A DNA stretch of 64,000 nucleotides, taken from Microglena sp. YARC (Eukaryota > Chlorophyta > Chlorophyceae > Chlamydomonadales > Chlamydomonadaceae). The first letter of the stretch is position 1; each line of letters opens with the position of its first letter. Position numbers and translations under genes: made by a program. Shown piece after piece: positions 3,622-59,164 of this stretch. The stretch lies in contig CM039463.1 of the NCBI GenBank assembly GCA_022414725.1, forward strand, positions 36,656,863 through 36,720,862. Direction: 5' to 3'. The notes beneath the pieces were generated by a model that was not told the DNA's origin, ran no database searches, and was given only the letters and a program-made list of their open reading frames with translations.

Positions 3622-4022
3622 TGTCTTCCAAATGAAGTTTCGTCGATCGATACAAAAGTCCTCCCTTCCTCTTTTAACCGTTCCCTTTGGCTTATGAATG
3701 ACGTGGTTTTCTCATATAAGTTATCAGGCCTGGAGAAGAACTTTGCTTTTTTCTTTGTGAGCCCAAGCCTTTTTATCACAACGCGAAACAATTCTTTTGA
3801 TACCTCAAATCCGAAAGCATCCTTTACCTCATGACGAAGAACAGCAAGAGATGCGAATGGATCTATTTTTAATGACGCCTTTAAGAACTCTATGACCACA
3901 TCCGATTTTGTAGGTTTATTCCGGTTGTACACTTTTTTAGTGGGGTTTGAGATCCACCTCGATACTGTCATGTGGCTTACATTCGCAAGTATACTGTAAC
4001 ATTATTGACCGGTCTGAGTGTA
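3622..4022 (-). pseudogene. truncated type-2 transposase with one terminal repeat
   Basis: From 4,022 (TA) leftward the sequence matches the left end and transposase of the complete element at 23,151-26,258: the inverted repeat TACACTCAGACCGGTCAATA, then the transposase from MTVSRWISN to SIDETSFGRH. The first about 30 codons are deleted, joining the terminal repeat to the middle of the N-terminal DNA-binding part. The match stops just after the first catalytic Asp. It is a dead fragment about 50 bp from the phosphatase gene. Confidence 0.85.
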
Positions 4023-8533: not shown

Positions 8534-8545
8534 CCTAATGTTGTT
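8475..8545 (-). mobile_element. solo right end of type-1 element, inverted
   Basis: TA then CAGTCAACGGAATACTTAAA and the following GCTTCGTGTACGGCACACC are the exact reverse complement of the right end at 62,808-62,875. No transposase is attached. Confidence 0.85.
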
Positions 8546-8549
8546 GCGA

Positions 8550-9144
8550 CCACCGGAGGGGGACCGAATGGTGTCTACAACAATACATGTCACAACCCAA
8601 TGAAATCAGTAAGCGGCAACTACTTTCGAGTCGGAGCACCTGCCCCTATGCCTTATTTCGAAAGCCGCCGTGCGTGTGTGAAGATGAATGAATGGACTGA
8701 CGGGGGGCTGCTAAAGCCGCAGTGGATTTTGCAGCCCCCTGTTATAAAAACGAGTGTAAACAACGCAAAATCCATACATGGCGGCTTTCGCATCCTCCTC
8801 GGTGTCCACACATGCCAAGGCGGCGGCTCCATGTACACGCAAACGGCGGAAAACTGTCGCATCCACACATCCATTCATGATGTGTAGGATATACCTGTCT
8901 GGAGGCCCGGGTCAGCCAGTTGGCATCGCAGCTCGCTAGGTTTCCGCACAACCCGTGTATGCATTTCTACGGCGATGGCAACATCACCCCTCCTTGATAT
9001 TATCTCCCTTGGGGGCATGCCACGGTGACTTGCGCATACTCATTCTCACAAGTGAATTCAAGCAGAGCAGACAACCTACCCATACAAATACTGAACAACG
9101 CACACATGAAGTCCGCATTTCGAAAAAATATAATTATACGCAGG
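8550..9144. other. gene-poor stretch
   Basis: No frame here has a family signature or good start. The phrase ACGCAAACGGCGGAAAACTG near 8,836 recurs in similar form near 5,995, 6,114, 27,362 and 59,110, so part of it is a further dispersed repeat. Confidence 0.5.
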
Positions 9145-11067: not shown

Positions 11068-11095
11068 TACACTCGGACAAGTGAATTAGGTTACA
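11068..11095 (+). mobile_element. solo end of type-2 element
   Basis: TACACTCGGACAAGTGAATT, then AGGTTAC, is the inverted right end of the type-2 transposon at 26,234-26,258, with TA at its outer edge. It directly precedes a TnpB-like fragment. Confidence 0.7.
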
Positions 11096-11102
11096 TTTAA
11101 AC

Positions 11103-11216: not shown

Positions 11217-11257
11217 AGGACAGCATCCCCGGGGGAGTTGACCCCTATGATACCCCC

Positions 11258-13674
11258 TACAGTCAGAGACAGAATTTATGGGACACCCTTACCGGTGACC
11301 CTTGAACCCAATGGGTAGGTCAGCTAAAGGTTTTGTTTGTATCAAAGTCCCAATCCTTCGTGTCCGTCATCCCGTATTTCAGCATTTAAGCTGGCCCAGA
11401 GGATAACAATTGTAAGCTGCTAACTGACCCAGGTGGGTCGGTTGGTTGAGCGCCCACATTTGCCTCTCCGGAAACTGTGGTTTTTGGGGTGGGCGATGAG
11501 GAGGGCACACAAAATGCCGCTGGTCGCTCTTTCCCGTCCATCCATGTCGTCAGAAGCAGAAGAAGGTTCTTGGCAGCGTTCATGTCTCGGTTCCAGGTTG
11601 CACCACAGCGCACATTGGATGATGCGCTTTTGACACTGTTGCGACAGTGCAGTACTTTGTGGACCTTAACGTTCTTCACCACCGTCTTCTGCTTCTCAAA
11701 CGTTGTTGTTGTTGTCGATGAGGGCGGAGGGCTCGTTTTGAACTCTGCGCCAGACGACGCTGTCTGCCTTCATGTTGACGAGCTTCTGGAAGCAGCCGTG
11801 GCAGGTACAAGAAGTGTTGCGTTCGTCGACGTTTTTGAACAGAACATTCTGACGACGTGAAAGGCACTTCCTGATCTCTTTCACTGGTCCAGAACACGAA
11901 CGACTGATGCCATATCCCTGGTTGGACCAGTTGCCGAAGCCAACAACGGTCTTCTTTGCTTTTGGAGCAATCACATCGCATACCTTTTCAATCGTCGTCT
12001 TCTGTGCTTTTGGAGCAATCAAATCGCATACCTTTTCAATCGTCTTCTGTTTGCCCACATATCGAAAGAATCGCATCGATCGGTAACCTCTGTTGGCTCG
12101 TTGTTGAAGGAGGGTCGGGAGCGCGCTGAGGTAACCTCTGACGTGGTCCTGCATGTCGTGCATACTGCTCGTAGTCGGCGATGGAATGGACTTCACGAGG
12201 TCTTGCGTATCGGCATTCCATTTGTTTGTGCGACGATTGCTGGTATTGTACCCAGCTGCTTCTCTAAAGCGGGCAGAGCTGAACGACTCGACTCGACCGT
12301 CAGAAGATGCTATAGTGACGATATCTGTCATACCCGGGTCGATACCGACACGCAGCGCACCCTGGCGCAAAGAAGCGTCCTGGCAGTCTTCGATACTTGC
12401 GTCTTTGGGATACCCCGCATTATCTCCTCCTCCTTCTCCAGCGATATCTTTACCCACCTGATGCTTCATTTGGACGGAGACCCCTTTGCCGTCGCTGAGG
12501 ATTCGGTTGTCAAAACGAGACCCTTTCGTCTCAAGTCCTTGGACATTGAAGTACTTTCTCCACAACATGGAATGATTCTCGTGACGTCCATCGCCACGGA
12601 CGCTCTCGAGCGGCGAATCGCCCATGCTGAGAAGCTTCATGAGTGTCATGGACGATATAGGGACGTAAGAAATGGTGAAGCCGCTCTTGCGTGGAAGGAT
12701 ACTGAACAGACGGGGGCGTTTTTTTGTTGTTTTCTCTTTTAGATCCGCTCCCAACTCTGTAAGCACGTGATGAAACAGTCTCATTGTCAGGTGTGCTCGA
12801 GTGTTGAACTGCTTCCCCCTTGGCAGCGGCAAGAGATCTCTCAGGCGTCTGACAACGTCTTTGATGAGGTTCGCATGCACGAGACCCGCTGGGATGATTT
12901 TGTCGATATCCGAGTCAGGATACTGGACCACTGCCTTGACAATCTTATTGAAATGTTTCTTCAACGAGGGATGTTTCAAGCGCAGGTACTTGATTACAAC
13001 CCTGTCCACGTTTGCCCAGACGCTGTTGCATGCCATCGTCGCCATTTGTATTGAGACGTCTGCGATTACCTGTCCCCATTGACAAACATCTACCTTTAAG
13101 AAGCCTGCAGGCCTGAGAGCGTCGAAAGCAACCATGCTATCTTTCAAGCTCTGGTCCAGCGTATCATTTCGGACATTGGATATCGAGACCGCAAGTATGC
13201 ACCTGTAGTAGAAGTTCCGATCCAGGTGCGGCAACTGCTTGACATCAAAGTCTCCATCATCTAGGCATCTGGTTATGTGAAAATTTGCGAATAAGTATGC
13301 CTCTGCAACTGCGTGGTTGATTACGAGTACCATGCTTTGGATCCTTGAGCAGATCTGCTGCCTCGATACATCCATGCACAAAGAATTAAGCGTCTTCTTG
13401 ACCACCATGATGTCCAGATCGTCGTCATCTCCGTTGTTTGTCACCACCCCCATCGAGAGGGAGTGATTATTATTTTGGTGATACCATACTAACGGACAAT
13501 TTCCTTATACCCTAATACGCGCACGTTATCATGATTGATGCAGAGGTAAGGCCTTGAATGTTTTGTATCAATCTCCTGAAGACAGTATCTGTATTGACAA
13601 GATCGGTTACAAAACTTGAATTGATCAAATCCCCAAAATAAAAGGTGTCCCACAATCAAATGTCCCTAGCTGTA
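11258..13674 (-). mobile_element. Fanzor-only element, family A
   Basis: The two outer edges are related inverted repeats: TACAGTCAGAGACAGAATTT at 11,258 and, on the other strand from 13,674, TACAGCTAGGGACATTTGAT; both continue to GGGACACC. TA lies at each edge, as for Tc1/mariner-type insertion. Inside is one Fanzor gene on the minus strand and no transposase, so mobility would need help in trans. The right end (at 11,258) is shared with solo copies at 6,262-6,332 and 20,854-20,925; left-end sequence recurs at about 53,475-53,491. Confidence 0.8.
11386..13453 (-). pseudogene. Fanzor (TnpB-like RNA-guided nuclease), family A, one frameshift
   Basis: The first 585 codons run from ATG at 13,453 to a stop at 11,696. 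They include RuvC-I GIDPGMTDIVT (near residue 370), VDERNTS and the first zinc-finger half CTCHGC. The remainder (VHKVLHC, then WNRDMNAAKN, the RuvC-III motif) continues in another frame to 11,386. The switch falls inside an AAC triplet tract (11,700-11,715), where the relative at 20.5 kb has no tract, so repeat slippage explains it. A segment of about 13 codons (TTIEKVCD..APKA) is tandemly duplicated. Related enzymes cut DNA guided by an RNA made from the element's end; this copy is probably inactive. Confidence 0.85.
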
Positions 13675-16577: not shown

Positions 16578-16744
16578 TAATGGGCGTTCCTGCCTCCCGG
16601 CCGATTTTGACTGGTTGCGAAACATGGTATGGAGCGGAATTGTGATTCCTTGGTGCTGATGTCTCAAGCTAGAGAGTCGTTCAGGAGGCTCTAAATCCTG
16701 ATTATAAATTTAAAAAAATCGGCCGGGAGGCAGGAACGACCATT
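16578..16744. mobile_element. MITE, GGGCGTTCCTGCC family, copy 1
   Basis: About 167 bp with 30-bp inverted repeats (TAATGGGCGTTCCTGCCTCC; the inner part is CGGCCGATTTT). The right end has a base change and is followed by a second partial end (TGTTCCTGCCTCC). Four copies lie in the window (also 27,699, 38,500, 50,224) and a one-ended piece at 46,119-46,152. No coding capacity. Confidence 0.9.
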
Positions 16745-17961: not shown

Positions 17962-20140
17962 TTATACTCGATTATAAAAAAGAGGTGCAAAACATATTTG
18001 GCAACAAACTGTACAGTTGTTCTCAAATAAAGTGGGACACACCTTATAATCATCCAGACTGCAGATCGTTGCTTTTTGGCAACGTTGGGGGGGGCAGCAG
18101 GTTGAAGAGGTTCTCGAGGATATTCCGAGTCGCCTCTGTGGTAAACAGTTCAATCCCAAACGACGGAAAGCAAGTCCAGTGGCAAGGATAAAAACGTGGT
18201 TGTCGTTGGTAGTACAGTTGTTCTCAAATAAAGTGGGACACCTTATAATCATCCAGACTGCAGATCGTTGCTTTTGGGCAACGTTGGGGGGGTGCAGCAG
18301 GTTGAAGAGGTTCTCGAAGATATTCCGAGTAGCCTCTTTGGTAAACCGTTCAACCGTCTGTGTCCCCATATCAGTATCAGGGGGTGGGGGTGGGGTTGTC
18401 GAGGAACTTCTCGGCGCGTCTCGGCGAAACGCTAGAGGACGCTCTCTCCCAAAGACTTGGTGAAGTGTAAGCATCAGGATGTTCCTGGAAGCGTTCACAT
18501 CGCGGTCCCAAGTCTTTCCGCAGTGAAGCATACCACCGCTCTGTTGGCGTGGCGCTCCGCTTTGACTGCTTTTGCAGTGGAGAATCTTATGAATCCGCTT
18601 GCGTCCTTCTGTACATTCCCAAGCTGTACCGTCTTGCTTCTTACGATGAGTGAGTGCCACCATGTTGTAAAGGTGGTTCTCACAGCAGCTGCATCGTTGA
18701 GATGTTCTAAACTCATCGATGTCCTCCATGATGACGTTTTCTCGGCTACGAAGCTCGAAACGAATAGCTTGGAGAGGGCCACAAGTCCGCCTAGAGATTG
18801 GCGTCGCCCCCAGACCTTTCCAATCACCAAACACGATGAGTACCTTAGCGCTCTTCTCTCTCGGAGCTACGAAGTCAGCAATCTCAACAATGAGTTTCTG
18901 TTTCTTGCAGTACCTGCGAAAGCGGAGGTTCCGGTACCCCCAGGAAGCACGATGGGCAAGAAGGATTGGGGCGGCACCCATGTAGAATCTGGCGTACGCA
19001 CCAATCTGTTCAGAACTCGAAGAGTCTCTATCTGGAATGATACCACCCACGATATCAGCCGTCTCGAGGTTCCAAACGTCAGTTTGACGCTGAGACTTGA
19101 AGATCAGACCCTTGCGATAATATTGCGCCGAGCTGTACGATCTGGTACCTCCGTTGAGTCCTGTTACAGTCACGATATCAGTAACACCCGGGTCTACCGA
19201 AGCCACGACCACATTGTCAAGGAAGGATACAATGCCACCCTCGTCTGCAGGCATCGAACATGTCAGACACGCAGGCTTATTCATCAAGATGCTGACTGCA
19301 AAGCCGTCAGTCACAATGCGGTAACCGAACTTCCGAGAAACTGTCTCCACTTTCTTGAGGTTTGCGAAGCGCTCCCACATTCCTTGATGGTTTTTGGAAG
19401 CAACGTCTGCCTTGCATGAATCGAAGTGGCACTCGTTGACCATATAGAAAAAGGCCATTTTCGAAATCGGAATGTGCGACAGAGTGAATCCAGGCAACAA
19501 CGAGAATGTGCGATGTTTTTCGTTTTTCTTCGATGGTCTCCGACAATATCTTGTGGTACAGAGGCAGGGTCATGTGAGCCCGAGACGCAAAAGTGTTTCC
19601 GGATGGTAAAGGTAGAACCCCCCTGAGACAGAATGCCACTTCGCGTGCAAAGAAGCGTTTCGCGTTATCTGCGTCCACCCTAAGGTTCTTCGAGGAGAGC
19701 CAAGCTTTGCTCAACTTTTCAAGCCTCTCTTGAAGTTTAGTCAACCTAACACGCAAAGGGGATCCTTCTGGTTCCTTCCTACCGACCCTCTTCTTCGCAA
19801 GAGCAACTGCACTTTTTGCCGATCGTAGTCTAGCTGTTGGAAGCTTGGTTGGCAGCTTGGTTGTATGAGGGCTCATCTTGAAGATGACGTCAAGATTCTT
19901 TGTAGGGCACTTGATCACTGCAGCCACGATGTCCGACCTTGCAATCTGTGGGTACTTCCACTTCAAGTAAGTCGTTATGCGTCGCTCAAGGTTGGTCCAA
20001 AGATGGTTAGAGGCCATTGTGGCCATGAGAATAGACAGGTCTGCAATGATCTGGTTCTTCACGTCCCCCCGAATGTCAACTTTGGATTGCCCCGGCTCTC
20101 TTAACAAGTCGAACAGAAGCCGACTACTCTCGATCAAAGC
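17962..20140 (-). pseudogene. Fanzor, family B, truncated and frameshifted
   Basis: The N-terminal part reads from about 20,140 to 19,307 and the nuclease part in another frame from 19,500 to 17,962; the overlap marks a frameshift near 19,490. Motifs: RuvC-I SVDPGVTDIVT, DEFRTSQRCSCC (likely the relocated catalytic Glu plus first zinc pair), HKILHC, and RuvC-III WDRDVNASRN. The beginning of the gene is replaced by a family A fragment joined at about 20,140. The C-terminal frame runs on through the terminal repeat twice because the end is duplicated. No transposase is attached. The nuclease core is intact, but the whole gene cannot be read as one frame. Confidence 0.8.
18012..18350. repeat. 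tandemly duplicated right end of Fanzor family B
   Basis: TACAGTTGTTCTCAAATAAA then GTGGGACACC and CCAGACTGCAGATCGTTGCT occur at 18,012 and again at 18,213. The first is the outer edge. Further solo copies are at 21,377 and partly at about 31,341, with an inverted one ending at 41,465. The motif CAAATAAAGTGGGACA is typical of mariner-like terminal repeats. Confidence 0.85.
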
Positions 20141-20925
20141 GCTCCCGATCCTCCTACAACACAGAGCCAACAAAGGCTACCGATCTATGCGATTCTTTCG
20201 ATACGTTGGTAAACAGAAGACGATTGAAAAGGTATGCGATGTGATTGCACCAAGGGCACAGACGACCGTTGTTGGCTTCGGCAACTGGTCCAACCAAGGG
20301 TATGGTATCAGTCGTTCATGTTCTGGGCCCATCAAAGAGATCAGGAGGTGCCTCTCACGTCGTAAGAATGTTTTGTTCAAAAACGTCGACGAACGCAACA
20401 CTTCTTGTAAATGTCACGGCTGCTTCCAGAGGCTTGTCAACATGAAGGCAGACAGCGTAGTCTGGCGCGGAGTTTGCAAAGAGTCCCCAATCGACGGGTC
20501 TATAACTGTTGAAAAGCAGAAGATGGTGGTGAAGAACGTCAAGGTCCACAAAGTACTGCACTGTAGAGACTGTCAAAAGCGCATCATCCAATGTGCGCTG
20601 TGGTGCAACCTGGAACCGAGACGTGAACGCTGCCAAGAACCTTCTTCTGCTTCTGACAACGTGGATGGACGGGAGAGAGCGACCTGAGGCATTCTGTGTT
20701 CCCTCGCCTCCCCCCAAAACCACAGTTTCCATCGAGGCGAGTGTGAGCGCTAAACCGACCGACCCACCTGGGTTTGTCAGCAGCTTGCCTTGTTATCCTT
20801 TGGGCCAGCTTAAATGCTGAAATACAGAGATGAAGGGCAAAAATATGTACTCGCCTTTAGCTGATCTACCCATTGGGTTCAAGGGTCACCGGTAGGGTGT
20901 CCCACAAATTGCGTCTCCGACTGTA
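20140..20925 (+). mobile_element. 3' half of Fanzor family A with its right end
   Basis: From about 20,140 the plus strand reads as the C-terminal part of the family A Fanzor (GYRSMRFFRYVGKQKTIEKV, CKCHGC, VHKVLHC), changes frame near 20,590, then gives WNRDVNAAKN. It ends in the family A right end with TA at 20,924. It lacks the duplicated codons and the AAC tract of the 11.3-kb copy, so it is closer to the ancestral sequence there. Its left side is fused to the opposing family B Fanzor; its right end interrupts an RNA ligase gene. Confidence 0.85.
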
Positions 20926-23129: not shown

Positions 23130-23204
23130 GAGCTAAGATGTGTTTTTAGTTACACTCAGACCGGTCAATAATGTTAAAGTATATTGAATCAATTACAATT
23201 CTCT

Positions 23205-24137
23205 ATGTACAACTTGGACAGACGGTCGATTGTTGTACACATGTACAAATTGCTGCAAAGTTTGAGGAGAGTGGCTATACTTGCGAATGTAAGCCACATG
23301 ACAGTCTCGAGGTGGATCTCAAACCCCACTAAAAAAGTGTACAAACGGAATAAACCTACAAAATCGGATGTGGTCATAGAGTTCTTAAAGGCGTCATTAA
23401 AAATAGATCCATTCGCATCTCTTGCTGTTCTTCGTCATAAGGTAAAGGATGCTTTCGGATTTGAGGTATCAAAAGAATTGATTCGCGTTGTGATAAAAAG
23501 GCTTGGGCTCACAAAGAAAAAAGCAAAGTTCTTCTCCAGGCCTGATAACTTATATGAGAAAACCACGTCATTCATAAGACAAAGGGAACGGTTAAAAGAG
23601 GAAGGGAGGACTTTTGTATCGATCGACGAAACTTCATTTGGAAGACATACGAGAGACGTGTTTGGCTACTCACCAAAAGGAGAGCTACTGGTTGTACCGA
23701 GGTTGAGACCTAGGGTGACGACAATGTCGGCACTTTGTCTTATTCAACAAGGAAAAGGAGACATTTATTTTAACATCAGGCAAGGGTCTTTCAACACGCA
23801 TACTTTTGTTGAGTTTTTAGAAAATTTGGACTGTCCAACTGACACAGTAATTATACTTGACAACGTTGCTTTTCACCACTCCAAGAAGGTCAAAACACTT
23901 GCAGCTTCAAGGGGGTGGGAGCTCCTATACACTCCTCCCTACTCACCTTGGTTCAACCCAATAGAAGGGGTGTTCTCCATCGTCAAACGCGATTTCTATA
24001 AAAGCCAAGATGTGTATAAGGATTTGAGTTCTGTTAAAGAGAAACACGTAGAGGCTTTTTTTCGAAAGTCATCGAATACAATTTCTGGACCTTGGTACAA
24101 GGAAATAGATACATTGGCTACTAAATGGAGACGATAA
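23205..24137 (+). CDS. IS630/Tc1-mariner transposase, DD34E
   Basis: About 310 residues. N-terminal helix-turn-helix part (VAILANVSHMTVSRWISN) and a second winged-helix part (LAVLRHKVKDAFGFEVSKEL) precede the catalytic core: first Asp in SIDETSF, second in ILDNVAFHH, Glu in PPYSPWFNPIEG, with 34 residues between the last two. It cuts and pastes DNA at TA sites. The ATG giving MYNLDRR is preferred; only a TTG lies further up. The last codons overlap the start of the Fanzor gene. All catalytic residues are present, so it may be active. Confidence 0.93.
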   Translation: MYNLDRRSIVVHMYKLLQSLRRVAILANVSHMTVSRWISNPTKKVYKRNKPTKSDVVIEFLKASLKIDPFASLAVLRHKVKDAFGFEVSKELIRVVIKRLGLTKKKAKFFSRPDNLYEKTTSFIRQRERLKEEGRTFVSIDETSFGRHTRDVFGYSPKGELLVVPRLRPRVTTMSALCLIQQGKGDIYFNIRQGSFNTHTFVEFLENLDCPTDTVIILDNVAFHHSKKVKTLAASRGWELLYTPPYSPWFNPIEGVFSIVKRDFYKSQDVYKDLSSVKEKHVEAFFRKSSNTISGPWYKEIDTLATKWRR

Positions 24138-26185
24138 TCAATAAAGAGCCTCCGGACAAGCGTACGCGACCGGACCGGGCGGCCAAAATTAAGGACAGGA
24201 AAAACGGCGAGGAGAACGTGGTAAAGTGTACACTGAGTTGGATCATAGCGGATAAGGACAACAAGGACGTTATCACCAAGGTGATTAAGGAGCGGGTCGA
24301 CAGCGTATCCAAGAGGACTTATCTTGCCGGTGTTGCGGGGAACCGGATATTAAAAGAAGTCTTCGAAGGGGTACCAGATGCGCAACTTCACACTGTAAGT
24401 GTCCCTAGCGTCGACCAGAACTTCATTCGGCAGCTTATGGTGGGGTCGAGACAGGCGCACATGGAGACGAGGGACGCCACAGTCGAAAGGTTCTTTCACA
24501 ACAACTATTGGTTTAGGGAGAAGATTGAGGGGCGCGAGGTAATTGTGAAAAAGAAGAAACAATACGTGGGTGCCATCGCTCGCTACGATGGCGATCGAAA
24601 CCTGTACAGCCACGCGTCGAAGAAGTACCTGACCAATTTCAATAACCACTACAGAGTCCATCTCTCCACATGGATCAAGAAGTTCGTTTACTCGAAGGAA
24701 AACAGGATCTTGGCCAAGGAGTTCAAAGATGAGCACGGCATTGACGAGACCGTATTCCACCGATACCTCCTCTACGATATCCACTCTTGGGGAGTAAAGG
24801 AAGACCTCATAGCGATACATTCGCTCCTACCGGAGCGAACAAAGATGTTGCTGAAGATTCAGCACTCGATCATCGGACGGGACGAGATCAACCGACAGTG
24901 GCTTAAGAGCGTTTCCAACAGCGCCAAGATGATCCGGTACAACGTCTTTATCAATCGATACCTCGAGGCCACAGAGGACGAGGGCTACGCCAAGCTGGTC
25001 AACATCGCTCCCATCCCAACAGTCAAGCACTCCTTCATCACGATAGACACCGACAGCCTACTGGGCGTCCTCAAGGACGTGGGTCTCGTCGAGAGTCTCG
25101 AAAAGACGCTGACGAACAAGGAGCACTGGGAGTCGGTCTTCGATGTGGAAAACATCCGTTCTACTGGGAAAGGTGTGTTTACATGCACCATAGACACTGA
25201 CGGCGTAATGGCTTGTACCCACTTTCTTAGGGCCGAGAAGAAAAAGATTTCAATCAAGGACGACGGAACGGCGATTAAGAAGCAGACCAATACTCTCCGC
25301 GAGTTTTCCGAGTCCGACCCCAATGTGGTGGTCGTTGCAAACGACCCTGGCCGCTGCAACATTGCCTTTTTGACTTGGAAGAAAAATAAGGTCGAAGAAA
25401 AAGATAAGGGGGGTAGGAAGAGGAAGAGGCACTGCGAGTTCGGGAGCAAGAGACTCACGCGGGAGCGGTACTACGTTGAGAGCGGGGTCTTCAAATCTAG
25501 AGGTCCGACCAAGAAGTGGTTGTCTAACATCCAGGACTGCCTTGACGACCTGAAGGACAACAGTCCCAAGCGCACATCTCTAGAGTCGTTTGACGCTTAC
25601 GTGACTGTAATGGTCAACCATTGGGATTCTCGATGGGGGGAGATGTCCAAGTCGCGGTGGGGCACGCAGCGCCTGCGGCTCTACGGTGGCAAGAAACGTG
25701 TCTTAGCACGCTTCTTCAACGAGGTCCAGGCGGATGTCGGTGAGAGGAAAACAATTGTCATCGCATACGGTTCTTCTAAGTTTGCCCCTGGTGGCAAGGG
25801 TGAACTTTCTGTCCCTACAACGAGCGCGTTCAATGCGTTTAGAGACCGTTTCAAGGGGCGAGTTGCCGTCATTGACGAATTCCGTACCACAAAGATCTGG
25901 CACAAGGACAGCACCACCGTCCTCCAGAGTGTGCAGTCCGAAAAAGAAGGGCGCACGGTTCGAGGCTTGCTATGGTGCAGTTCCACCATGGAGAACAGCA
26001 AGTTGTTTGTAAACCGTGACCTAAATGCAGCCATTAACATCCACAATTGCTTTACAATGTACCCAACCCGCCCCGGAATTCTTGCGAGGCCAAAGAAATA
26101 TTGCAAACTGGAAGTTGTGGTAGGACGCACAATTGATTACAAGCTGACAGGTTCTTTACAGAACGCAGTGTCGAGCGAAGTGTAG
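24125..26185 (+). CDS. Fanzor nuclease, family C
   Basis: 686 residues, intact. RuvC-I VANDPGRCNIAFL (Asp near 407), IDEFRTTKIW (Glu near 585, the position proposed as the relocated RuvC-II Glu in Fanzors), RuvC-III NRDLNAAINIH (Asp near 631). The zinc finger that normally lies between the last two is reduced: only one Cys remains (LLWCSS). The N-terminal 400 residues are basic and helical and should bind RNA and target DNA. ATG overlaps the transposase stop by 13 bases. Fanzors form RNA-guided DNA nucleases with an RNA from the element's 3' end and probably act in the nucleus. Confidence 0.9.
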   Translation: METIINKEPPDKRTRPDRAAKIKDRKNGEENVVKCTLSWIIADKDNKDVITKVIKERVDSVSKRTYLAGVAGNRILKEVFEGVPDAQLHTVSVPSVDQNFIRQLMVGSRQAHMETRDATVERFFHNNYWFREKIEGREVIVKKKKQYVGAIARYDGDRNLYSHASKKYLTNFNNHYRVHLSTWIKKFVYSKENRILAKEFKDEHGIDETVFHRYLLYDIHSWGVKEDLIAIHSLLPERTKMLLKIQHSIIGRDEINRQWLKSVSNSAKMIRYNVFINRYLEATEDEGYAKLVNIAPIPTVKHSFITIDTDSLLGVLKDVGLVESLEKTLTNKEHWESVFDVENIRSTGKGVFTCTIDTDGVMACTHFLRAEKKKISIKDDGTAIKKQTNTLREFSESDPNVVVVANDPGRCNIAFLTWKKNKVEEKDKGGRKRKRHCEFGSKRLTRERYYVESGVFKSRGPTKKWLSNIQDCLDDLKDNSPKRTSLESFDAYVTVMVNHWDSRWGEMSKSRWGTQRLRLYGGKKRVLARFFNEVQADVGERKTIVIAYGSSKFAPGGKGELSVPTTSAFNAFRDRFKGRVAVIDEFRTTKIWHKDSTTVLQSVQSEKEGRTVRGLLWCSSTMENSKLFVNRDLNAAINIHNCFTMYPTRPGILARPKKYCKLEVVVGRTIDYKLTGSLQNAVSSEV

Positions 26186-26258
26186 AAGATAAACACATAC
26201 AAGAGGATTTTGGGGGACTCGGCATATTATGTAACATAATTCCCTTGTCCGAGTGTAA
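26186..26258 (+). other. 3' end of type-2 element, candidate guide-RNA scaffold
   Basis: The 73 bases from the Fanzor stop to the outer TA are kept in other copies (60,370-60,442 and 62,570-62,599), together with the last codons of the Fanzor. In TnpB and Fanzor systems the guide RNA is transcribed over this part and extends into the flank. No RNA is shown here; the call rests on position and conservation. Confidence 0.4.
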
Positions 26259-26361
26259 ATGCACAGGAAATCGCGAAGATAGGAATATTGAATCCAAACT
26301 ATTCGTCTTAGATGAGAGGCAGCTGCTATGTACAAACATAAACTGTTTAGGGAGTTGGTAC

Positions 26362-26777
26362 TACAGTCGGCGGCGGAACAGTAAAATGAAACATCCCAAT
26401 AAACGGTATAAGGCGTCGACAGAATGGCCCGTCCAGCAAAGAAACCTCCTGTCATGACGCAACAAAGACCCCGTGTTCTTTTGGGCCACGGTACCGGGGA
26501 AGAGGCGATCGCTTAAGTGCGGCTGGTCCTTCAATGGACACTCTCGAAAGTACCGACAAAAGAATGATACGGAGTCTGCAGGATGGAGAGCCGTGATCTA
26601 AAAAAGAACCACGATATTCTCGTTAACATCTTGTAATTTGTTGATTCTAAATCGTATTGGTGTTCCACTTCCCCGTGGGTTGCTACACCATTAGGGTTTT
26701 GGGGTTTGCCGGCAGGACTCCTCTCTCAAGGTGTTTCGTACACGAAGCGGTTTCTTTTTAGTATTCCGTTGACTGTA
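26362..26777 (+). mobile_element. short type-1 element without transposase
   Basis: 416 bp from TA-CAGTCGGCGGCGG to TTTAGTATTCCGTTGACTG-TA. The interior (ACAAAGACCCCGTGTTCTTT, then GATCTAAAAAAGAACCACGA and GTTCCACTTCCCCGTGGGTT) is shared with 55,990-56,280 and, in part, 40,853-41,059. No gene. The left end carries an extra CGG. Confidence 0.85.
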
Positions 26778-26789
26778 CGATCCTCCATG

Positions 26790-27146
26790 TCAAGTTGTAG
26801 CATCCATAGTGGAACCGTTGCACACAAACATAGCTTGCTGCTGCTGTCTGCAAATCCTTAGAATTTGAATGCCGCAGTAAGCGATGACATATGACCGATT
26901 GATCTCGATGATGTAGGTGTTCTCCACGCGCGCAGCCTTAATGGTAGTTACATCTGTTGTATCATGCACACTCAGCTCAGGTGTGAACACTGTGATACCA
27001 TCTGCATTCTCTGTCCAAACGCGTCCCGTGTGGTTTGACAAGCTTTGAAGCTTGATGACTATGTCTGGCGCCATGTCACTCCGGAGCACGTGGACGGTGC
27101 GATTCATATAGCTTATCGACATGGGAACAATGCCTGTAGAAGTCAT
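26790..27146 (-). CDS. hypothetical protein, about 118 aa
   Basis: ATG start giving MTSTGIVPMSISYMNRTVHV. The sequence is strand-rich and hydrophobic at intervals (VIKLQSL, GITVFTPELSVHD, NTYIIEINRSYVIAYCGIQI). A QQQQ run lies near the end. No family is recognised. The stop lies 12 bases from a transposon edge, so the C-terminus may have been changed. Confidence 0.5.
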   Translation of the reverse strand: MTSTGIVPMSISYMNRTVHVLRSDMAPDIVIKLQSLSNHTGRVWTENADGITVFTPELSVHDTTDVTTIKAARVENTYIIEINRSYVIAYCGIQILRICRQQQQAMFVCNGSTMDATT

Positions 27147-27179
27147 GACAACAGGTGTATTACACACACACACAAATAG

Positions 27180-27698
27180 TCGCTTTATATTAATAATGAG
27201 GCCTCCGACAAAAAAGAACGGACGCTTGATGAATGGATCGAGTGGGCCGGCGCGCTCCGCATGAACGCATCGAATTGCAGAAAATTAACAAAATGCTACG
27301 AGAAAGTATCGGATGCGGGTGAAGTCGTTGACAAAACTTCAAAGCCCCGGCATCCTCACACAAACGGCGGAACACTGTGTCGTCCGTACCACATTAAACA
27401 AGTGGCGGAGCCCCTTTTACCTCCCCCCAGCGGAGCTCCCACAAAGGAGTCCGCGAGGAACGAGGAACATCAACCAGCACAGTGTAACATCAACCAGCAG
27501 ACACAATACATCGTAATCTCTGGCTGGCGTGGCTTTACTTCAGCGCAACTTCTGAACCCACCACCGGAAAATTCCGACGCGTCCAGGGCAGTACATCGAA
27601 ATCTCTGGCTGGCGTAGATACGTGATTCTTGGCAGCTTGTATTGTCAATTTAAGATTTTTTACAAAATTGACATTGAAGAGGGACATATGTGTCGATG
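27180..27698. other. stretch with coding remnant and dispersed repeat
   Basis: An open plus-strand run (about 27,197-27,360) reads LDEWIEWAGALRMNASNC and looks coding, but has no proper start. It passes into the dispersed repeats ACAAACGGCGGAACACTGTG and GGCGGAGCCCC. A short duplication (ATCTCTGGCTGGCGT) occurs at 27,513 and 27,601. Confidence 0.4.
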
Positions 27699-27866
27699 TA
27701 ATGGGCGTTCCTGCCTCCCAGCCGATTTTTTTAAATTTCTAATCAGGATTTAGAGCCTCCTGAACGACTCGCTAGCTTGAGACATAAGCACAAAGGAATC
27801 ACAAATCCGCTCCATACCATGTTTAGAAACCAGTCAAAATCGGCCGGGAGTCAGGAACGCCCATTA
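27699..27866. mobile_element. MITE, GGGCGTTCCTGCC family, copy 2
   Basis: 168 bp with TA at both edges and nearly perfect inverted repeats. It sits 12 bases from the left edge of the complete type-1 transposon. The interior (GCTAGCTTGAGACATAAGCA) runs opposite to copies 1 and 3. Confidence 0.92.
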
Positions 27867-27924
27867 TGTGTAAATACTACAGTCGGCGGAACAGTAAAAT
27901 GAAACATATATCAGATGGAAATAA

Positions 27925-28833
27925 ATGTACGACATCGCCGTTAGAAAATTGGCGTTAAGAATGGTCGCTGACTTGGGTGTGTTAAAAACTTCTGTGTTTA
28001 CGAACATCAGTCGTTCTACTCTGTGGAGGTGGAAACGCTTTGGTGTAAATCGAAAACGACGTGAATTTGTAAGCAAACTTTTTGAGACGAACAAAGAGTT
28101 GTTGAAATTGTTTTTATTGTCAACTCAATGCACAACCGCAAGAGGTGTTGTTGCATTTCTCAAAAGTACTCACAATTTACGATTATCAACTAAAACAGTG
28201 TATCGTTTCATAAAACTCATTGGTTTTACAAGAAAAAGGAGCAGACTCCGTGGACAGTGTAAAGGGGTCTTAGTTCCACTTGTCACTGAATTGTGTAGTA
28301 GATACAAGGATACAATCAATGCTGGGAAAATTTTAGTATCAGTTGACGAATGTGGGTTTAGTGAGCGTCTCAAGCCACATTATGGGTATTCCCCTGTAGG
28401 AAAACCTGTTATCGTTAAAACTACTGGTGGGTGGGTACACCATAGTTTGTTGATGGCAGTTTTTTCAGATGGTAGGAAGGAGTTCGTTGTGAAGAAAGGA
28501 TCTGTGAAGAAGACGGACTTCGCTGCATTTATTGACTCATTGAGTTTGTGCAATAATTCAGTAGTAATAATGGACAACGCCAGTATCCATAAGAACTTGG
28601 TCCTCAGAAGCCCCGTAAATATTTGTTACACTCCTCCTTACAGTCCAGAATTCAATGCTATTGAGCTGTGCTTCGCTAAGGTGAAGAAGGACTTTCGTCG
28701 ATTGAACTATATACCAAACGATACAAAGACGCACGTGTCTGATATGATTTCCTTAGCATTCAGCAACCTCACTGATAAAATCATTATGGGTTGTTTTGAC
28801 CACGTATGGAACACGTATGTGATGTTTGTATAA
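27925..28833 (+). CDS. Tc1/mariner-like transposase with short D-E spacing
   Basis: 302 residues from ATG. N-terminal helix-turn-helix (FTNISRSTLWRWKRFG) and a second DNA-binding part are followed by the catalytic core: SVDECGFSE, IMDNASIHKN and PPYSPEFNAIEL. Only 29 residues lie between the second Asp and the Glu, against 34 in the type-2 enzyme, because the loop after the second Asp is shorter. All three acidic residues are present. The C-terminus ends NTYVMFV; a related copy at 57.2 kb ends with ten other residues (TRQIANTKPD). Confidence 0.92.
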   Translation: MYDIAVRKLALRMVADLGVLKTSVFTNISRSTLWRWKRFGVNRKRREFVSKLFETNKELLKLFLLSTQCTTARGVVAFLKSTHNLRLSTKTVYRFIKLIGFTRKRSRLRGQCKGVLVPLVTELCSRYKDTINAGKILVSVDECGFSERLKPHYGYSPVGKPVIVKTTGGWVHHSLLMAVFSDGRKEFVVKKGSVKKTDFAAFIDSLSLCNNSVVIMDNASIHKNLVLRSPVNICYTPPYSPEFNAIELCFAKVKKDFRRLNYIPNDTKTHVSDMISLAFSNLTDKIIMGCFDHVWNTYVMFV

Positions 28834-28862
28834 AAAGTTCTGTGATGTATAAATTATGTAAG

Positions 28863-31211
28863 ATGGCAACGAAACCTCCGACAGTCGCGAAATTGAAGGA
28901 GCTACTAAAATTGGCCGAAGTAGCATACTCATCAAAGGACAAGAAGGACGATATTGTCCGTTTATGCGAAGACAATGGTCTCATTGCCAGACCCCCTCCA
29001 GAATACAAGACGGTGGAAAATATGTGTGTCGTGAAATGCGCCCTGAAGAAGGCAATGAGTCTTGACGATGAAGAATTCGGTAAGTTTAGGGAGCATGTGG
29101 ATCAGCTCGTCAATGTGGTGAGCCGCATGTTGCGGCGTTCCAGTCTGGTGCTGACTTTCCATGTCACGAGGCTCATGGAGGGCGACCTGCCGATTCCTAA
29201 TATGTACGATATGAAGGATACCTACTGGAAGGATTGGCTAAGGATCGGAGTTGACGGTGTCTTTCCAGATGAAGAGAGTAGAATATCATACGAATCCGTG
29301 AAAGACGTAATCGGAAAGGTGCTTGGTAGCGATGACCCTGACTACATCAACTCCTACCCTATCTATTTCGACCAGGTTTTGAACTATGCCGGTCACACAT
29401 TGAGCACTGTCGTGTCGAACAACGCATGGGTTCCTTTGGTACCTCGTCTGACACGCCTCACTAAGGCTACTTTGAATGCACTGGGAGCTCCGAAGACCAT
29501 CCGTGTGTACGACGTGATGAGGGTTATCCAACAAGAAATACAGGAGATGGAATCTTGGCCAGAGTCTGTTCAGGAGTATGTCCGTGATGTTCGAGTCAGG
29601 CTGAAAGTTCCAGATGGAAGTCGACTTTATGATGACTATGGCAACGACATGGACTTCCCGACCATGGTCCGGTTCAATTATTGGATGCAGACACGGTTGG
29701 AGGCTATTGGTGCACGTCGTATCCGGTTGATGCCCATCTTTAATGTCCAACGGGCGCATGTCCGCCTTGACATGAAGACCCTCGTGAACCTATTCAGGCA
29801 CGTGTTCCCCAAAGACCCAAACATCGTCGAGCTTTCAAAGTGGAAAAATGTAAAGGATCCCGACCGCTTCATGTTGCCTCTGAAGCCTGCAGTTAAGAAG
29901 AAAAAATCATGTGGTCCTGGTGAATGGGAGGCATACAAGTTGGCCCAACAGAAGTACGATGCTGACGTTAATGATATCAAGGATACTGACGAGTACAGAC
30001 ATGCAAAGGGTAGGTATGACACGCTCGTGAACGCCCGAAAAACAGTCGCAGGTTCCTTCTTCAAGAAACCACCTGTCAAGACGGGGTGGGTGTTCGATTG
30101 TAGCATCTGTACTGACATAGTCTCATTGAGCATGCAGTACAGCAAGACAGTACAGGTTCGTGTATCCGATCTGAAGAAGACAAGTAAGAGGTCTCGTGAC
30201 GATGAAGGTATGAGCGTCTCAGAACAGTATGACCATAAACTCAAAACGACATTGCCCGATATGGGTATCGTCGTTCTGGGTGTGGATCCTGGTAGGAGCA
30301 ACATCGCTACAGTCACGTATCTGGCAGACGACAAAAGCAAGACATGGAAGCTTACACGCGGATCTTTTTACCACAAGTCTGGTATCAAGAAACAGAAAAA
30401 ACAGCAAGAAAAACGTTTCTCAGACATGATTCCTAGATGGGAGTCTCTTCGTGAAAATGGAGCAGCGTTGAGTACATCCAGGACGGATGATATCTCGGCT
30501 TACTTGAAAAATTACGCTACGTTTTCCGACGAGTGGTGGAGGATGGCACTCCTTCGCAGAGAATCCCGAGACAACTTTCAGAGGTACATTGGCAAGCGCA
30601 AGGCTATGGACTCATTTTGGGCAGGGATCAAGCGCAACATGAAGTTGGATCATCCTGACCTGAGGGTTCGCGTAGCATATGGTTCTGCAATCACGACTCT
30701 GAAGGCTACCGGACCAGGAGAGGTAGCTGTGCCTACGGGATCTATGTTCGCTTCCTGCAAGCGCCTCTTCAAAGAGGAGGTTCATGTGACAGATGAGTTC
30801 AAGACGACTCTCATGTCTTGGGAAACCGGTGCCAAGAAGGAATGTGTTTACAAAATTCCAAGTGTCCAAATAACCACGGAAGGGCAGATTCGTCTAGGTT
30901 ACGAGTTGTTGGGTCACACCCCATTGAAGGAGACTCCAAAGGTCTCTTATCGCGACCAGTTGGCGGTGAGGGTGTACTGCACACGTAAACAAATCCAAGA
31001 AAAACACAGGAGGGGTGGCTTAGCCCCCTCTCTTGTCGACAACAACTCGATCAAGCGGTACCCTGAGGTACGAGGACTGCGATTCTCTCCAGAAACCAGC
31101 ACTTACTCGGACCGGGACCGCTCCTCTGCTCTCACAATTGCAAGGCTGCACTGCATGGAACTGTTGGGTCAAGGGAGACCGCTTCCATTTTGCAGGGATG
31201 CGTGTTGTTGA
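28863..31211 (+). CDS. Fanzor nuclease, family D, with SAP-like N-terminus
   Basis: 782 residues from the ATG giving MATKPPTVAKLKELL; an in-frame ATG at 28,806 would overlap the transposase stop by 28 bases and is also possible. Residues about 6-40 fit a SAP DNA-binding motif (KLKELLKLAEVAY, DDIVRLCEDNGL). RuvC-I LGVDPGRSNIATV (near 475), TDEFKTT (near 643) and RuvC-III SDRDRSSALTI (near 749) supply Asp, Glu and Asp. The zinc-finger Cys pairs are absent. It is intact and lies inside a complete transposon, so it is a good candidate for an active RNA-guided nuclease. Confidence 0.88.
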   Translation: MATKPPTVAKLKELLKLAEVAYSSKDKKDDIVRLCEDNGLIARPPPEYKTVENMCVVKCALKKAMSLDDEEFGKFREHVDQLVNVVSRMLRRSSLVLTFHVTRLMEGDLPIPNMYDMKDTYWKDWLRIGVDGVFPDEESRISYESVKDVIGKVLGSDDPDYINSYPIYFDQVLNYAGHTLSTVVSNNAWVPLVPRLTRLTKATLNALGAPKTIRVYDVMRVIQQEIQEMESWPESVQEYVRDVRVRLKVPDGSRLYDDYGNDMDFPTMVRFNYWMQTRLEAIGARRIRLMPIFNVQRAHVRLDMKTLVNLFRHVFPKDPNIVELSKWKNVKDPDRFMLPLKPAVKKKKSCGPGEWEAYKLAQQKYDADVNDIKDTDEYRHAKGRYDTLVNARKTVAGSFFKKPPVKTGWVFDCSICTDIVSLSMQYSKTVQVRVSDLKKTSKRSRDDEGMSVSEQYDHKLKTTLPDMGIVVLGVDPGRSNIATVTYLADDKSKTWKLTRGSFYHKSGIKKQKKQQEKRFSDMIPRWESLRENGAALSTSRTDDISAYLKNYATFSDEWWRMALLRRESRDNFQRYIGKRKAMDSFWAGIKRNMKLDHPDLRVRVAYGSAITTLKATGPGEVAVPTGSMFASCKRLFKEEVHVTDEFKTTLMSWETGAKKECVYKIPSVQITTEGQIRLGYELLGHTPLKETPKVSYRDQLAVRVYCTRKQIQEKHRRGGLAPSLVDNNSIKRYPEVRGLRFSPETSTYSDRDRSSALTIARLHCMELLGQGRPLPFCRDACC

Positions 31212-31333
31212 TGGGCTACAAAAAAACATGATGGTGTTCCACTGCCCCGTGGGTTGCTACACCATAAGGTTACACCATAAGGTGTACCGTACACTCCAGA
31301 AAGCGGTTTCATTTTAGTATTCCGTCGAGTGTA
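31212..31333 (+). other. 3' end of type-1 element, candidate guide-RNA scaffold
   Basis: 122 bases between the Fanzor stop and the outer TA. They contain GTTCCACTGCCCCGTGGGTT and short hairpins (CACCATAAGGTG; GTGTACCGTACAC). The same block is kept at 26.65-26.78, 34.05-34.13 (inverted), 40.97-41.06, 56.19-56.28 and, in part, 62.81-62.88 and 8.48-8.55 kb. By analogy with TnpB it could be the scaffold of a guide RNA, with the guide read from the flank. Inference only. Confidence 0.45.
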
Positions 31334-34047: not shown

Positions 34048-34150
34048 TACAGTCGACGGAATACTAAAATGAAACCGCCTCGTGTACGGCACACACCTTA
34101 CGGTGTAGCAACCCACGGGGCAGTGGAACACCAATACGATTTTGAATCAA
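34048..34150 (-). mobile_element. solo right end of type-1 element, inverted
   Basis: TA-CAGTCGACGGAATACTAAA, then the candidate scaffold block in reverse (CCCACGGGGCAGTGGAACAC). The left part of the element is missing; a remnant of the CCCCATG minisatellite follows. Bases 34,250-34,340 downstream are shared with 41,061-41,153. Confidence 0.8.
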
Positions 34151-38310: not shown

Positions 38311-38690
38311 TATACCGTTTTTTTACTGTTCCGCGACTGTAGGGATAGGAGGAAGACGGGTATAGATATCGGGCAGGAAGGGGGGGGGGTGGTGTTCCGC
38401 AGGGGTGTTCCGCAGGGGTGTTCCGCAGGGGTGTTCCGCAGGGGGCTTTGGGCAGGAGATTTGGCTTGCGGGGCCAAAGAGGTAAGGTGACGTCGGGATT
38501 AAATGGGCGTTCCTGCCTCCCGGCCGATTTTGACCGGTTGCAAAACATGGTATGGAGCGGATTTGTGATTCCTTTGTGCTGATGTCTCAGGCTAGCGAGT
38601 CTTTCAGGAGGCTCTAAATCCTGATTAGAAATTTTAAAAAATCGGCCGGGAGGCAGGAAAGCCCATTATTTACTGTTCTGCCGACTGTAG
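38311..38690. mobile_element. transposon-end cluster with MITE copy 3
   Basis: Inverted left ends of type-1 elements lie at 38,320-38,341 (ACTGTTCCGCGACTG-TA) and 38,671-38,688 (ACTGTTCTGCCGACTG-TA). Between them are a 15-base repeat (GGTGTTCCGCAGGG) at 38,390-38,440 and a complete GGGCGTTCCTGCC MITE at 38,500-38,668. No gene. Confidence 0.75.
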
Positions 38691-40852: not shown

Positions 40853-41059
40853 ATCTAAAAAAGAACCACGATATTCTCGTTAACATCCTGCAATTTGTTG
40901 ATTCAAAATCGTGATCTAAAAAAGAACCACGATATTCTCGTTAACATCCTGCAATTTGTTGATTCAAAATCGTATTGGTGTTCCACTGCCCCGTGGGTTT
41001 CTACACCGTAAGGTGTGCCGTACACGAATCGGTTTCATTTTAGTATTCCGTTGACTGTA
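40853..41059 (+). mobile_element. right part of type-1 mini-element with internal duplication
   Basis: GATCTAAAAAAGAACCACGA through GATTCAAAATCGT (61 bases) occurs twice in tandem, then the scaffold block and TTTAGTATTCCGTTGACTG-TA at 41,058. It abuts the fold-back element without a gap. The left end is missing. Confidence 0.85.
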
Positions 41060-45000: not shown

Positions 45001-46314
45001 ATCCATTAATTGATTCAGTATGTGACCATACACAAGTGCTTGACATGACAGTAACATTACAATCAAGGACAACCTATGAATTTGACAAGGGCACAACCCT
45101 GTTTGAAGACACATCTCACTGCACCAGTCATCCTACAAGTAGGTCTGACAATTGCCAATGAATTCGTCAATTCATACATAAGTTTATGCAAGCATCATCC
45201 ATTAATTGATTCAGTATGTGACCATACAAAAGTGCTTGACATGACAGTAACATTACAATCAAGGACAACCTATGAATTTGACAAGGGCACAACCCTGTTT
45301 GAAGACACATCTCACTGCACTAGTCATCCTACAAGTAGGTCTGACAATTGCCAATGAATTCGTCAATTCATACATAAGTTATGCCAAGGCATCATCCATT
45401 AATTGATTCAGTTTACCATACAAGTGCTTGACATGACAGTAACATTACAATCAAGGACAACCTATGAATTTGACAAGGCACAACCCTGTTTGAAGACACA
45501 TCTCACTGCACCAGTCATCCTACAAGTAGGTCTGACAATTGCCAATGAATTCGTCAATTCATACATAAGTTTATGCCAAGGCATCATCCATTAATTGATT
45601 CAGTATGTGACCATACACAAGTGCTTGACATGACAGTTACATTACAATCAAGGACAACCTATGAATTTGACAAGGGCACAACCCTGTTTGAAGACACATC
45701 TCACTGCACCAGTCATCCTACAAGTAGGTCTGACAATTGCCAATGAATTCGTCAATTCATACATAAGTTTATGCCAAGGCATCATCCATTAATTGATTCA
45801 GTATGTGACCATACAAAAGTGCTTGACATGACAGTAACATTACAATCAAGGACAACCTATGAATTTGACAAGGGCACAACCCTGTTTGAAGACACATCTC
45901 ACTGCACCAGTCATCCTACAAGTAGGTCTGACAATTGCCAATGAATTCGTCAATTCATACATAAGTTTATGCCAAGGCATCATCCATTAATTGATTCAGT
46001 ATGACCATACACAAGTGCTTGACATGACAGTAACATTACAATCAAGGACAACCTAATTTTTTTTTTTTTTAAACGTCCGTAAGTCAGTCAGTCAAATAAA
46101 TTCTGTGTAGAAATTTCAAAAAATCCGCCGGGAGGCAGAAACGCCCATTACTTACTCGGAACATTGGGATGTAGAGGTAGTGAGGCGCCACCACACCAAC
46201 GCAATCACTCCCAAACACCATCTTCACATCCACAATGCTGCGGAATGTGAATTTATAATCATCTCTGAAAAAGTTGGCGTGCCGACCTTTGCAAGATCGT
46301 CGAATCATATCCAC
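42005..46314 (-). CDS. chromodomain protein, last two exons
   Basis: Exon 46,314-46,156 (acceptor CTGCAG/GTGG, donor CGA/GTAAGT) codes VDMIRRSCKGRHANFF and on to HYLYIPMFR. The intron runs to 42,221 (acceptor TTGTGCGCAG). The last exon, 42,220-42,005, codes VRWHDPYTAEDDTWEPVDDL and on to a stop. Both junctions are phase 0, and joining them makes a classic chromodomain core, IPMFRVRWHDPY..DDTWEP, split by the intron. Chromodomains bind methylated histone tails; they also occur in retrotransposon integrases. The 3.9-kb intron is filled by a satellite. Upstream exons probably include 47,201-47,426. The start of the gene is not found. Confidence 0.6.
42290..46060. repeat. about 197-bp satellite, about 19 units, within an intron
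   Basis: The unit includes AACCTATGAATTTGACAAGG, CAGTCATCCTACAAGTAGGT and CAAGTGCTTGACATGACAGT. Length varies from 192 to 199 bases through short indels. The array lies inside the chromodomain gene's large intron. One inverted unit plus 20% of another lies in intron 2 of the JmjC-like gene at about 51,076-51,310. Confidence 0.95.
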
Positions 46315-55978: not shown

Positions 55979-55981
55979 CGC

Positions 55982-56810: not shown

Positions 56811-56843
56811 CTTGCACAATAAAATGCACATGTAATATGCCAC

Positions 56844-59047: not shown

Positions 59048-59164
59048 AGTAGTCTCGAATGTCCCGTGGAGCAGGAAGATGGATTCAGTTGCAGAAACCT
59101 ACAATAACCGGCAGAAAACTGTCGAATCCATCCGTCCGTCCATTCATTACACACGATGCGGTGG

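Follow-up and report, generated by a model that had tools for sequence, protein, structure and literature searches.

Two transposons, E1 (23151-26257, plus strand) and E2 (27878-31333, plus strand), lie side by side in a 64,000-nucleotide stretch of DNA from Microglena sp. YARC (assembly GCA_022414725.1, contig CM039463.1, positions 36,656,863 to 36,720,862 of the forward strand). This whole stretch is referred to as the window, coordinates are positions within it unless another contig is given, and element copies were likewise counted within it unless L001 or L002 is named. Both elements are of the IS630/Tc1/mariner type, extend from TA to TA, and carry a transposase gene together with a gene for a Fanzor nuclease. 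On balance, we favor with moderate confidence the explanation that both descend from one ancestral element that combined an IS630/Tc1-type transposase with a zinc finger-less Fanzor1-type nuclease, that they now represent two anciently diverged families, and that the Fanzor is guided by RNA from the right end of the element to support retention or homing. The transposase would excise the element and paste it at a TA, while the Fanzor would most likely use an RNA that originates from the right end and reaches shortly into the flanking DNA. Cleavage of the empty site after excision would then lead repair to copy the element back, resulting in retention or homing. Short derivatives with both ends could be moved in trans, and where the hairpin segment of the right end is preserved as well, they could serve as a source of more guides. 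The genes, ends, TA sites, catalytic residues, predicted fold, copies, hybrids, and a C before the left TA can be read from the DNA itself, and from these we infer enzyme activity, a guide RNA, CTA as a Fanzor target motif, and a role in retention. To our knowledge, it is still open of what use Fanzors are to their carrier transposons, and two complete transposase-Fanzor pairs beside miniatures, hybrids, and a base that is fixed where the target motif is predicted to lie amount to a small natural experiment on this role.

Genes, ends and catalytic residues of E1 and E2

The E1 transposase gene (23205-24137, plus strand) encodes 310 amino acids and matches Pfam DDE_3 with an E value of 1.4e-27 and the NCBIfam IS630 profile with 138 bits; the E2 gene (27925-28833, plus strand; 302 amino acids) yields 1.3e-24 and 106 bits, respectively, the curated cutoff of the NCBIfam profile being 100 bits. 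The catalytic triads are D141/D219/E254 in E1 and D141/D217/E247 in E2, with spacings from the second D to the E of 34 and 29 residues, respectively. Beyond the TA, the terminal repeats match at 23/34 positions in E1 and 25/34 in E2, values not attained in any of 20,000 shuffles. The boundaries are confirmed most strongly by other copies of E1- and E2-type ends in the window, which end at identical bases beside different neighbors. The repeat matches and the further copies bear out the two TA-bounded elements with imperfect terminal inverted repeats described in an earlier note on this DNA, except that the end of E1, given there as 26258, has been corrected to 26257. With a complete DDE_3 triad, terminal inverted repeats, and TA duplications, E1 and E2 are both typical of the IS630/Tc1/mariner group, and each holds a Mariner transposase and a Fanzor1 gene within one pair of ends.

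The Fanzor gene of E1 occupies 24125-26185 (plus strand; 686 amino acids) and that of E2 28863-31211 (plus strand; 782 amino acids from the start at 28863). Sequence searches at E ≤0.001 identified 38 relatives of the E1 protein (P0064-P0101) and 63 of the E2 protein (P0001-P0063), of which 28 and 30, respectively, were aligned together with the window's own protein (29 and 31 rows). Pfam gave no match above its cutoffs for either Fanzor, the best for E1 being a weak similarity to Cas12f1-like TNB (E 0.027). The family profiles matched solved Fanzor1 proteins, with E values of 2.9e-19 for PpFz1, 8.5e-13 for SpuFz1, and 4.8e-6 for GtFz1 using the E1-family profile and 1.9e-8 for GtFz1 and only 0.036 for SpuFz1 using the E2-family profile. 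AlphaFold2 models of the E1 and E2 Fanzors had predicted local distance difference test (pLDDT) values of 84.9 and 86.9, respectively, and the seven best Protein Data Bank matches of both models were SpuFz, PpFz, and GtFz structures (best E 6e-20 for E1 and 4.7e-16 for E2). The nuclease D/E/D triad is located at residues 407/585/632 in E1 and 475/645/752 in E2 (numbered from the 28863 start). All three residues are kept in 31/31 aligned rows of the E2 family, and in the E1 family they are kept in 29/29, 28/29, and 28/29 rows; the row gapped at catalytic positions is P0100, which ends early. This near-invariance argues that the nuclease is under selection. Both window Fanzors also contain the RuvC-I DPGR motif. 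A CxxC between the E and the last D is found in 0/31 E2-family rows and in a single one of the 29 E1-family rows, the distant P0101, and the E1 and E2 proteins themselves are devoid of it. By homology and predicted fold, the E1 and E2 nucleases are Fanzor1-type proteins of a zinc finger-less lineage, and this lineage has kept its catalytic residues without the finger. The transposase profiles and the Fanzor1 structure matches agree with the earlier note in placing a DDE transposase before a same-strand Fanzor in each element, and all catalytic acidic residues of both pairs could be located, as it had claimed.

Among the relatives of the E1 Fanzor are pieces in a EukProt gene set whose best local alignments are 95-99% identical over 17-24% of the query, an 83% relative in the same gene set, and a 98% relative in metagenomes; one E2-family protein is named as coming from Chlamydomonas incerta. 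A piece of P0067 was considered as a viral primase and dropped, as Pfam assigns it no family. The window also contains Fanzor-like genes of another type, with a DPGxTDIVT motif and CxxC present, at 11696-13453 (minus strand), 17962-20026 (minus strand), and 19977-20687 (plus strand), which are at least partly decayed. Unlike E1 and E2, the minus-strand genes at 11696-13453 and 17962-19458 have the CxxC directly after the glutamate. The stretches 11257-12124 and 20926-20139 are 80% identical.

Relationship and gene spacing of E1 and E2

The earlier note had called the two elements unrelated and concluded that the same layout arose twice. Both the profile cross-scores and a transposase tree speak against this. 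The E1 and E2 transposases share 25% of 269 aligned residues (E 4e-25) and the best local alignment of the Fanzors covers 285 residues at 26% identity, while profiles of the two Fanzor families match across 548 columns (E 7.8e-60). When scores were compared at equal database size, the E1-family Fanzor hidden Markov model (HMM) gave 140-214 bits for the 31 E2-family rows and 113 bits for Chlamydomonas P0062, versus 99.6 bits for the 11696 Fanzor, 81.8 for the 17962 Fanzor, 72.4 for PpFz1, 51 for SpuFz1, and 28.7 for GtFz1. The E2-family HMM gave 72-154 bits for the 29 E1-family rows, versus 39.9 bits for the 11696 Fanzor, 36.3 for GtFz1, 15.6 for SpuFz1, and 14.0 for the 17962 Fanzor; it should be noted that the 11696 and 17962 Fanzors score lower in part because they are shorter. 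The transposase HMMs behaved similarly, with median scores of 131 bits (17 rows) and 148 bits (16 rows) for members of the other family, compared with 76 and 79 bits for ten bacterial IS630s, and the ranges of the two groups did not overlap, narrowly so in one direction (113.8 versus 112.9). A profile combining both transposase families found 378 hits, of which 120 were listed, and the tree was built from 43 rows comprising 30 of the 120 listed hits, E1, E2, L002, and the ten bacterial sequences. It contained an E1-like group (100/99) and an E2-like group (100/99), and the bacteria were separated from both (93/84). The same split had received support of 80 in an earlier tree that held six bacterial rows; one of these, L007, has internal stops and was left out of the later tree, to which five others were added. 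Thus, E1 and E2 are not unrelated, as both of their genes form mutually nearest groups among those compared. Because this applies to the Fanzors and the transposases alike, two captures are less likely than a single ancient cassette that diverged, which would be the simplest reading. The transposase and Fanzor identities of only 25% and 26% also indicate, in line with the earlier note, that the pair is not the product of a recent tandem duplication.

The L002 contig, which is apparently misfiled under a bacterium, carries an E2-like left tip, an E2-type transposase at 299-1237, and an E2-type Fanzor from 1284 to the contig end, so that the right end lies beyond the contig. Judging from this contig, the transposase-Fanzor layout is old in the E2 line. 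P0197 and P0089 are both reported with a longest contig of 19,129 bases from the same source, which is only a hint of a further cassette. Several such lengths agree between the Fanzor and transposase hits, but no other was relied upon, and P0036/P0146 was rejected as a linked pair given that 2,936 bases are too short for both genes.

Gene spacing bears upon the further claim that overlapping reading frames signal coupled expression. The 13-base overlap of the E1 transposase and Fanzor is exactly as previously described, and there is no in-frame start upstream. For E2, a 28-base overlap or a 29-base gap had been proposed, depending upon which of the in-frame ATGs (28806, 28845, or 28863) begins the Fanzor. 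The nearest relatives of the E2 Fanzor, P0001 and P0002, start at the residue encoded at 28863, whereas the starts of more distant relatives vary. Since P0001 and P0002 share this start, the gap is the preferred alternative, and the E2 genes are probably separated by 29 bases. The gap in L002 is 46 bases, and an upstream stop excludes an earlier ATG. The E1 transposase extends 14 residues beyond residue 296, which is the end of the 97% identical P0102. Among the matches listed, there were 97 E1-like transposases, three of which fell under the identity cut; of the 94 compared, 90 stop short of residue 305 and 30 terminate at 296, these being projected ends, a few of which are possibly cut by contig ends. 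The E1 overlap therefore looks derived, in that 90/94 relatives are without its transposase tail, and a short gap seems to be the usual transposase-Fanzor arrangement. With gaps in L002 and probably in E2, coupled expression gains no support from the overlap.

Two other histories have to be weighed against a single ancient cassette. Unrelated mariners could have captured Fanzors independently, with overlapping genes expressed from one transcript, which would account for the large divergence (25-26% identity), the different DDE spacings of 34 and 29, and the E1 overlap, which is real. We consider this very improbable, as the E1 and E2 gene pairs are both mutually nearest among the groups compared and no overlap is found in L002, probably none in E2, and, as judged by transposase length, none in most of the compared E1 relatives. 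Alternatively, a single mariner lineage may have captured a Fanzor that a related mariner gained later by recombination. The hybrid miniatures I and J1 described below do demonstrate that E1 and E2 sequences can be joined, yet such a cassette exchange should have left the Fanzors more alike than the transposases, and their identities are similar (26% over 285 residues and 25% over 269 residues, respectively), which makes this an unlikely alternative to a cassette inherited once.

Derivative copies, left flank and right end

With up to 6 mismatches allowed, a scan of the window located 18 ends of the E2 type, of which 10 are left ends and 8 are right ends, including those of E2 itself. Five short elements are complete. 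M2 (26362-26777, plus strand) is a 416-base pair (bp) non-autonomous element without a transposase or full Fanzor in which a left tip of the E2 type and the hairpin segment of the right end are preserved. A (184-512, plus strand; 329 bp) is an E2-type miniature in which a frame resembling a Fanzor N-terminus was recognized by eye. I (60233-60442, plus strand; 210 bp) and J1 (62407-62599, plus strand; 193 bp) are hybrid miniatures consisting of an E2 left end and an E1 right end, while J2 (62604-62875, plus strand; 272 bp) combines an E2 left end (98.5%) with a diverged right end that resembles that of D and is 80% identical to that of E2. The remaining copies are incomplete. Left ends are represented by B (1660-2094, plus strand; E2 left end, 95% identical, truncated), element C (3622-4022, minus strand; E1 left end and part of the transposase gene, 97-99%, with an internal deletion and truncated), H (56844-57234, plus strand; E2 left end fused to a piece from within the transposase, 98.9%, truncated), and two E2-type left tips at 38669-38689 (minus strand), which runs into a miniature of another family, M3, and at 60186-60209 (plus strand). 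Right ends include D (8475-8551, minus strand; E2-type, left end not found), a 29-nucleotide E1-type right tip at 11068-11096 (minus strand; 93%), E (34048-34133, minus strand) and F (40976-41059, plus strand), which are both E2-type right ends with the hairpin segment and no left end, and G (55964-56280, plus strand), which has an M2-type body and right end with the left end missing. The identity to E2 is 95-100% for most left ends, a sign of probable recent activity, but over long matches it is only 75-82% for the right ends of the short elements, which accordingly stem from other or older lineages.

The hybrids I and J1 contain 80-odd bases of the E2 left end followed by approximately the last 65 (I) or the last 100, with a deletion (J1), bases of the E1 Fanzor frame and the E1 right end. 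Their E2 breakpoints are a few bases apart and their E1 breakpoints ~40 bases apart, and they occupy different TA sites. They have one clear substitution in common that is not in E1, and a second candidate lies at a deletion edge in J1. We favor a single hybrid that moved and later lost pieces over two separate joins of this kind. If a hybrid moved, then some transposase accepts mixed ends.

In both A and M2 there is a short frame that looks, by eye, like the beginning of a Fanzor of the E2 type, and both may descend from Fanzor-only elements. L001 contains a Fanzor-only E2-type element at 250-2919, with matching ends and TA and without a transposase, in which the Fanzor frame is split into open reading frames (ORFs) at 365-769 and 957-2804. 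M3 is a separate family of ~168-bp miniatures with terminal TA that are 92-94% identical (27699-27866, 16578-16744, 38502-38668, and 50220-50390, with a part at 46097-46151); one copy ends ~11 bases to the left of E2 and another adjoins a cut E2-type left tip. A stretch of 66 identical bases occurs in inverted orientation at 18442-18507 and 67-132, one of them ~50 bases to the left of A. Leucine-rich repeat genes are arranged in tandem from 54701 to 60205, and G, H, and the 60186 tip lie within or at the end of this array.

A C precedes the left TA of 9/10 E2-type left ends in the window, compared with 18.8% of all window TAs (P 2.4e-6), and of 11/12 after inclusion of L001 and L002 (P 1.0e-7), although the position was noticed first and tested afterward; the sole left end with an A instead is the 60186 tip. 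G is found at position -5 of the left flank in 7/12. On the other side, the base after the right TA is C in three, T in three, G in one, and A in one of eight cases. By analogy with Spizellomyces punctatus, described below, C-TA may be the target motif of the E2 Fanzor, or the C before the TA may be a preference of the transposase.

The candidate source of the guide RNA is the right end, which we infer from its position, like that of known Fanzor guide RNAs. In E2, a putative omega-RNA scaffold would span 31232-31333 (plus strand), starting ~20 nucleotides after the Fanzor stop, and in E1 the candidate guide-RNA region would be 26077-26257 (plus strand), from the last ~109 nucleotides of the Fanzor frame to the TA, parts of which are kept in I and J1. 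About 100 nucleotides after the E2 Fanzor are common to E2, M2, E, F, and G, and the likeness continues for ~70 nucleotides beyond the terminal repeat. A first hairpin was recognized by eye in these same five of the eight E2-type right ends, and D and J2 keep the inner part only. The E2 right end folds with a z score of -2.98 (1/200 shuffles as good), L001 with -2.36, and G with -2.04, while M2, F, and E are ordinary. Rfam and tRNA scans returned no match.

A number of observations weigh against our favored explanation of a Fanzor guided from the right end of an anciently shared cassette. Only 3/8 folded right ends have z scores below -2, both E1-type right ends fold no better than shuffles (z -0.04 for 26121-26257), covariation was detected at 0/14 pairs in an alignment of seven right ends, and A has no right-end hairpin segment. 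I and J1 sit at C-TA with E1 right ends, and both E1 left ends sit at AGT-TA, so that the C seems tied to the E2 left end or to the transposase rather than to the nuclease. Empty sites were sought for eight elements, with no spanning match for E1 or E2 and only a ~10-nucleotide left-side hint for J2. The comparisons behind shared ancestry were confined to ten bacterial IS630s for the transposases and, for the nucleases, to five other Fanzors, of which two are shorter or broken genes; the branches are long, and the transposase rows had been collected with a profile of both families. Lastly, the C4 zinc finger of the Fanzor motif described in 2013 is absent from both nucleases. Yoon and colleagues (2023, PMC10711439) ascribe the finger to "many" TnpBs and Fanzors, which implies that it is not universal, and E1 and E2 are therefore classed as a zinc finger-less Fanzor1-type variant.

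Several of these points would be expected if the transposase alone were responsible, preferring C-TA beside the left end and needing a conserved right end, with the Fanzor as a passenger that has no RNA-guided role in spread. The C accompanies the E2 left end irrespective of which right end is present (I, J1, and J2), the right end is devoid of covariation, and A possesses both ends yet no hairpins. We regard this as a possible but less probable account. A passenger nuclease is difficult to reconcile with a D/E/D triad that is invariant in 31/31 E2-family and 28-29/29 E1-family rows; a near-symmetric transposase complex should presumably bias both sides, and the matching G is found in just 1/8 right flanks; and five right ends are alike ~70 nucleotides past the terminal repeat. 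As an extension of the guided-Fanzor explanation, the guide-RNA end could even be a swappable module, such that miniatures pair the transposition end of one family with the guide end of another (I and J1, with J2 contributing a further right-end type) and thereby change the nuclease that retains or spreads them, while the left C-TA would mark sites that the nuclease can revisit. We give this idea little credence at present.

Wider searches and known systems

Searches of IMG/VR viral contigs produced no match to the E1 and E2 Fanzors, their alignments, the end sequences, or other window proteins, and phage records searched with the E2 Fanzor alone yielded none. Of 33 stretches matched in prokaryote genome contigs, two encode a relative, and these two appear to be misbinned. 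On L009 (2138-4145), an Acidithiobacillus caldus plasmid, the IS630 that ranks first among plasmid matches to the E1 transposase starts back to back with a gene annotated as a TnpB family member, an arrangement that could be due to chance. The other window genes (Pfam on 29) include an RNA ligase, a dual-specificity phosphatase, an amidotransferase, a thioesterase, and ankyrin and leucine-rich repeats, a content that would suit a large DNA virus, free or endogenous, although these matches did not favor any one of giant virus, endogenous virus, and nuclear DNA over the others.

In the literature searched, which covers subscription papers thinly, the papers listed include no report of hybrid Fanzor-mariner miniatures, a weak negative, and no paper mentions giant virus along with both Fanzor and Mariner. 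As a layout, the transposase-Fanzor pair is known, and what is new here are the miniature E2-type offspring, the hybrids, and the C before the left TA. The closest parallel to the short copies are the Spu-1 ghost loci of Spizellomyces punctatus, which (Saito 2023, PMC10432273) have ends without a nuclease gene, a common right-end segment, and fixed bases to the left of the left repeat, as is the case here. M2 likewise has both ends and the shared right-end segment without a complete nuclease gene, whereas E, F, and G are right ends alone. In S. punctatus, the bases fixed ahead of the left repeat are CA, CATA is the motif that was tested, and sequence of the RNA was obtained, while here C alone is fixed and the RNA is a prediction; we read the CA as part of the CATA motif. 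E1 and E2 also carry a transposase, unlike Spu-1. For the SfAV Fanzor1 and IS607 TnpB (Yoon 2023, PMC10711439), the RNA scaffold is predicted to include the terminal repeat and the target duplication, which would also hold for the segment proposed in E1 and E2, although the former belong to another transposon type and our segment was deduced from sequence. The Submariner miniature inverted-repeat transposable elements of Pandoravirus salinus (PMC4495683) are Tc1/mariner miniatures that multiplied in one genome with TA duplication, as here, but with a D-E spacing of 75-86 residues versus 34 and 29, and the word Fanzor is absent from that paper.

A Mariner transposase and a Fanzor1 in one element have been known since 2013 (Bao and Jurka, PMC3627910). 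As described there, PGv-1 and PUl-1 resemble E1 and E2 in joining both genes within a TA-flanked element, and this type occurs also in large algal viruses and has Fanzor-only relatives that share its ends. E1 and E2 differ in having neither the third (endonuclease) gene of PGv-1 nor the C4 zinc finger. Unlike PGv-1 and PUl-1, E1 and E2 represent two related families found side by side with their hybrid offspring.

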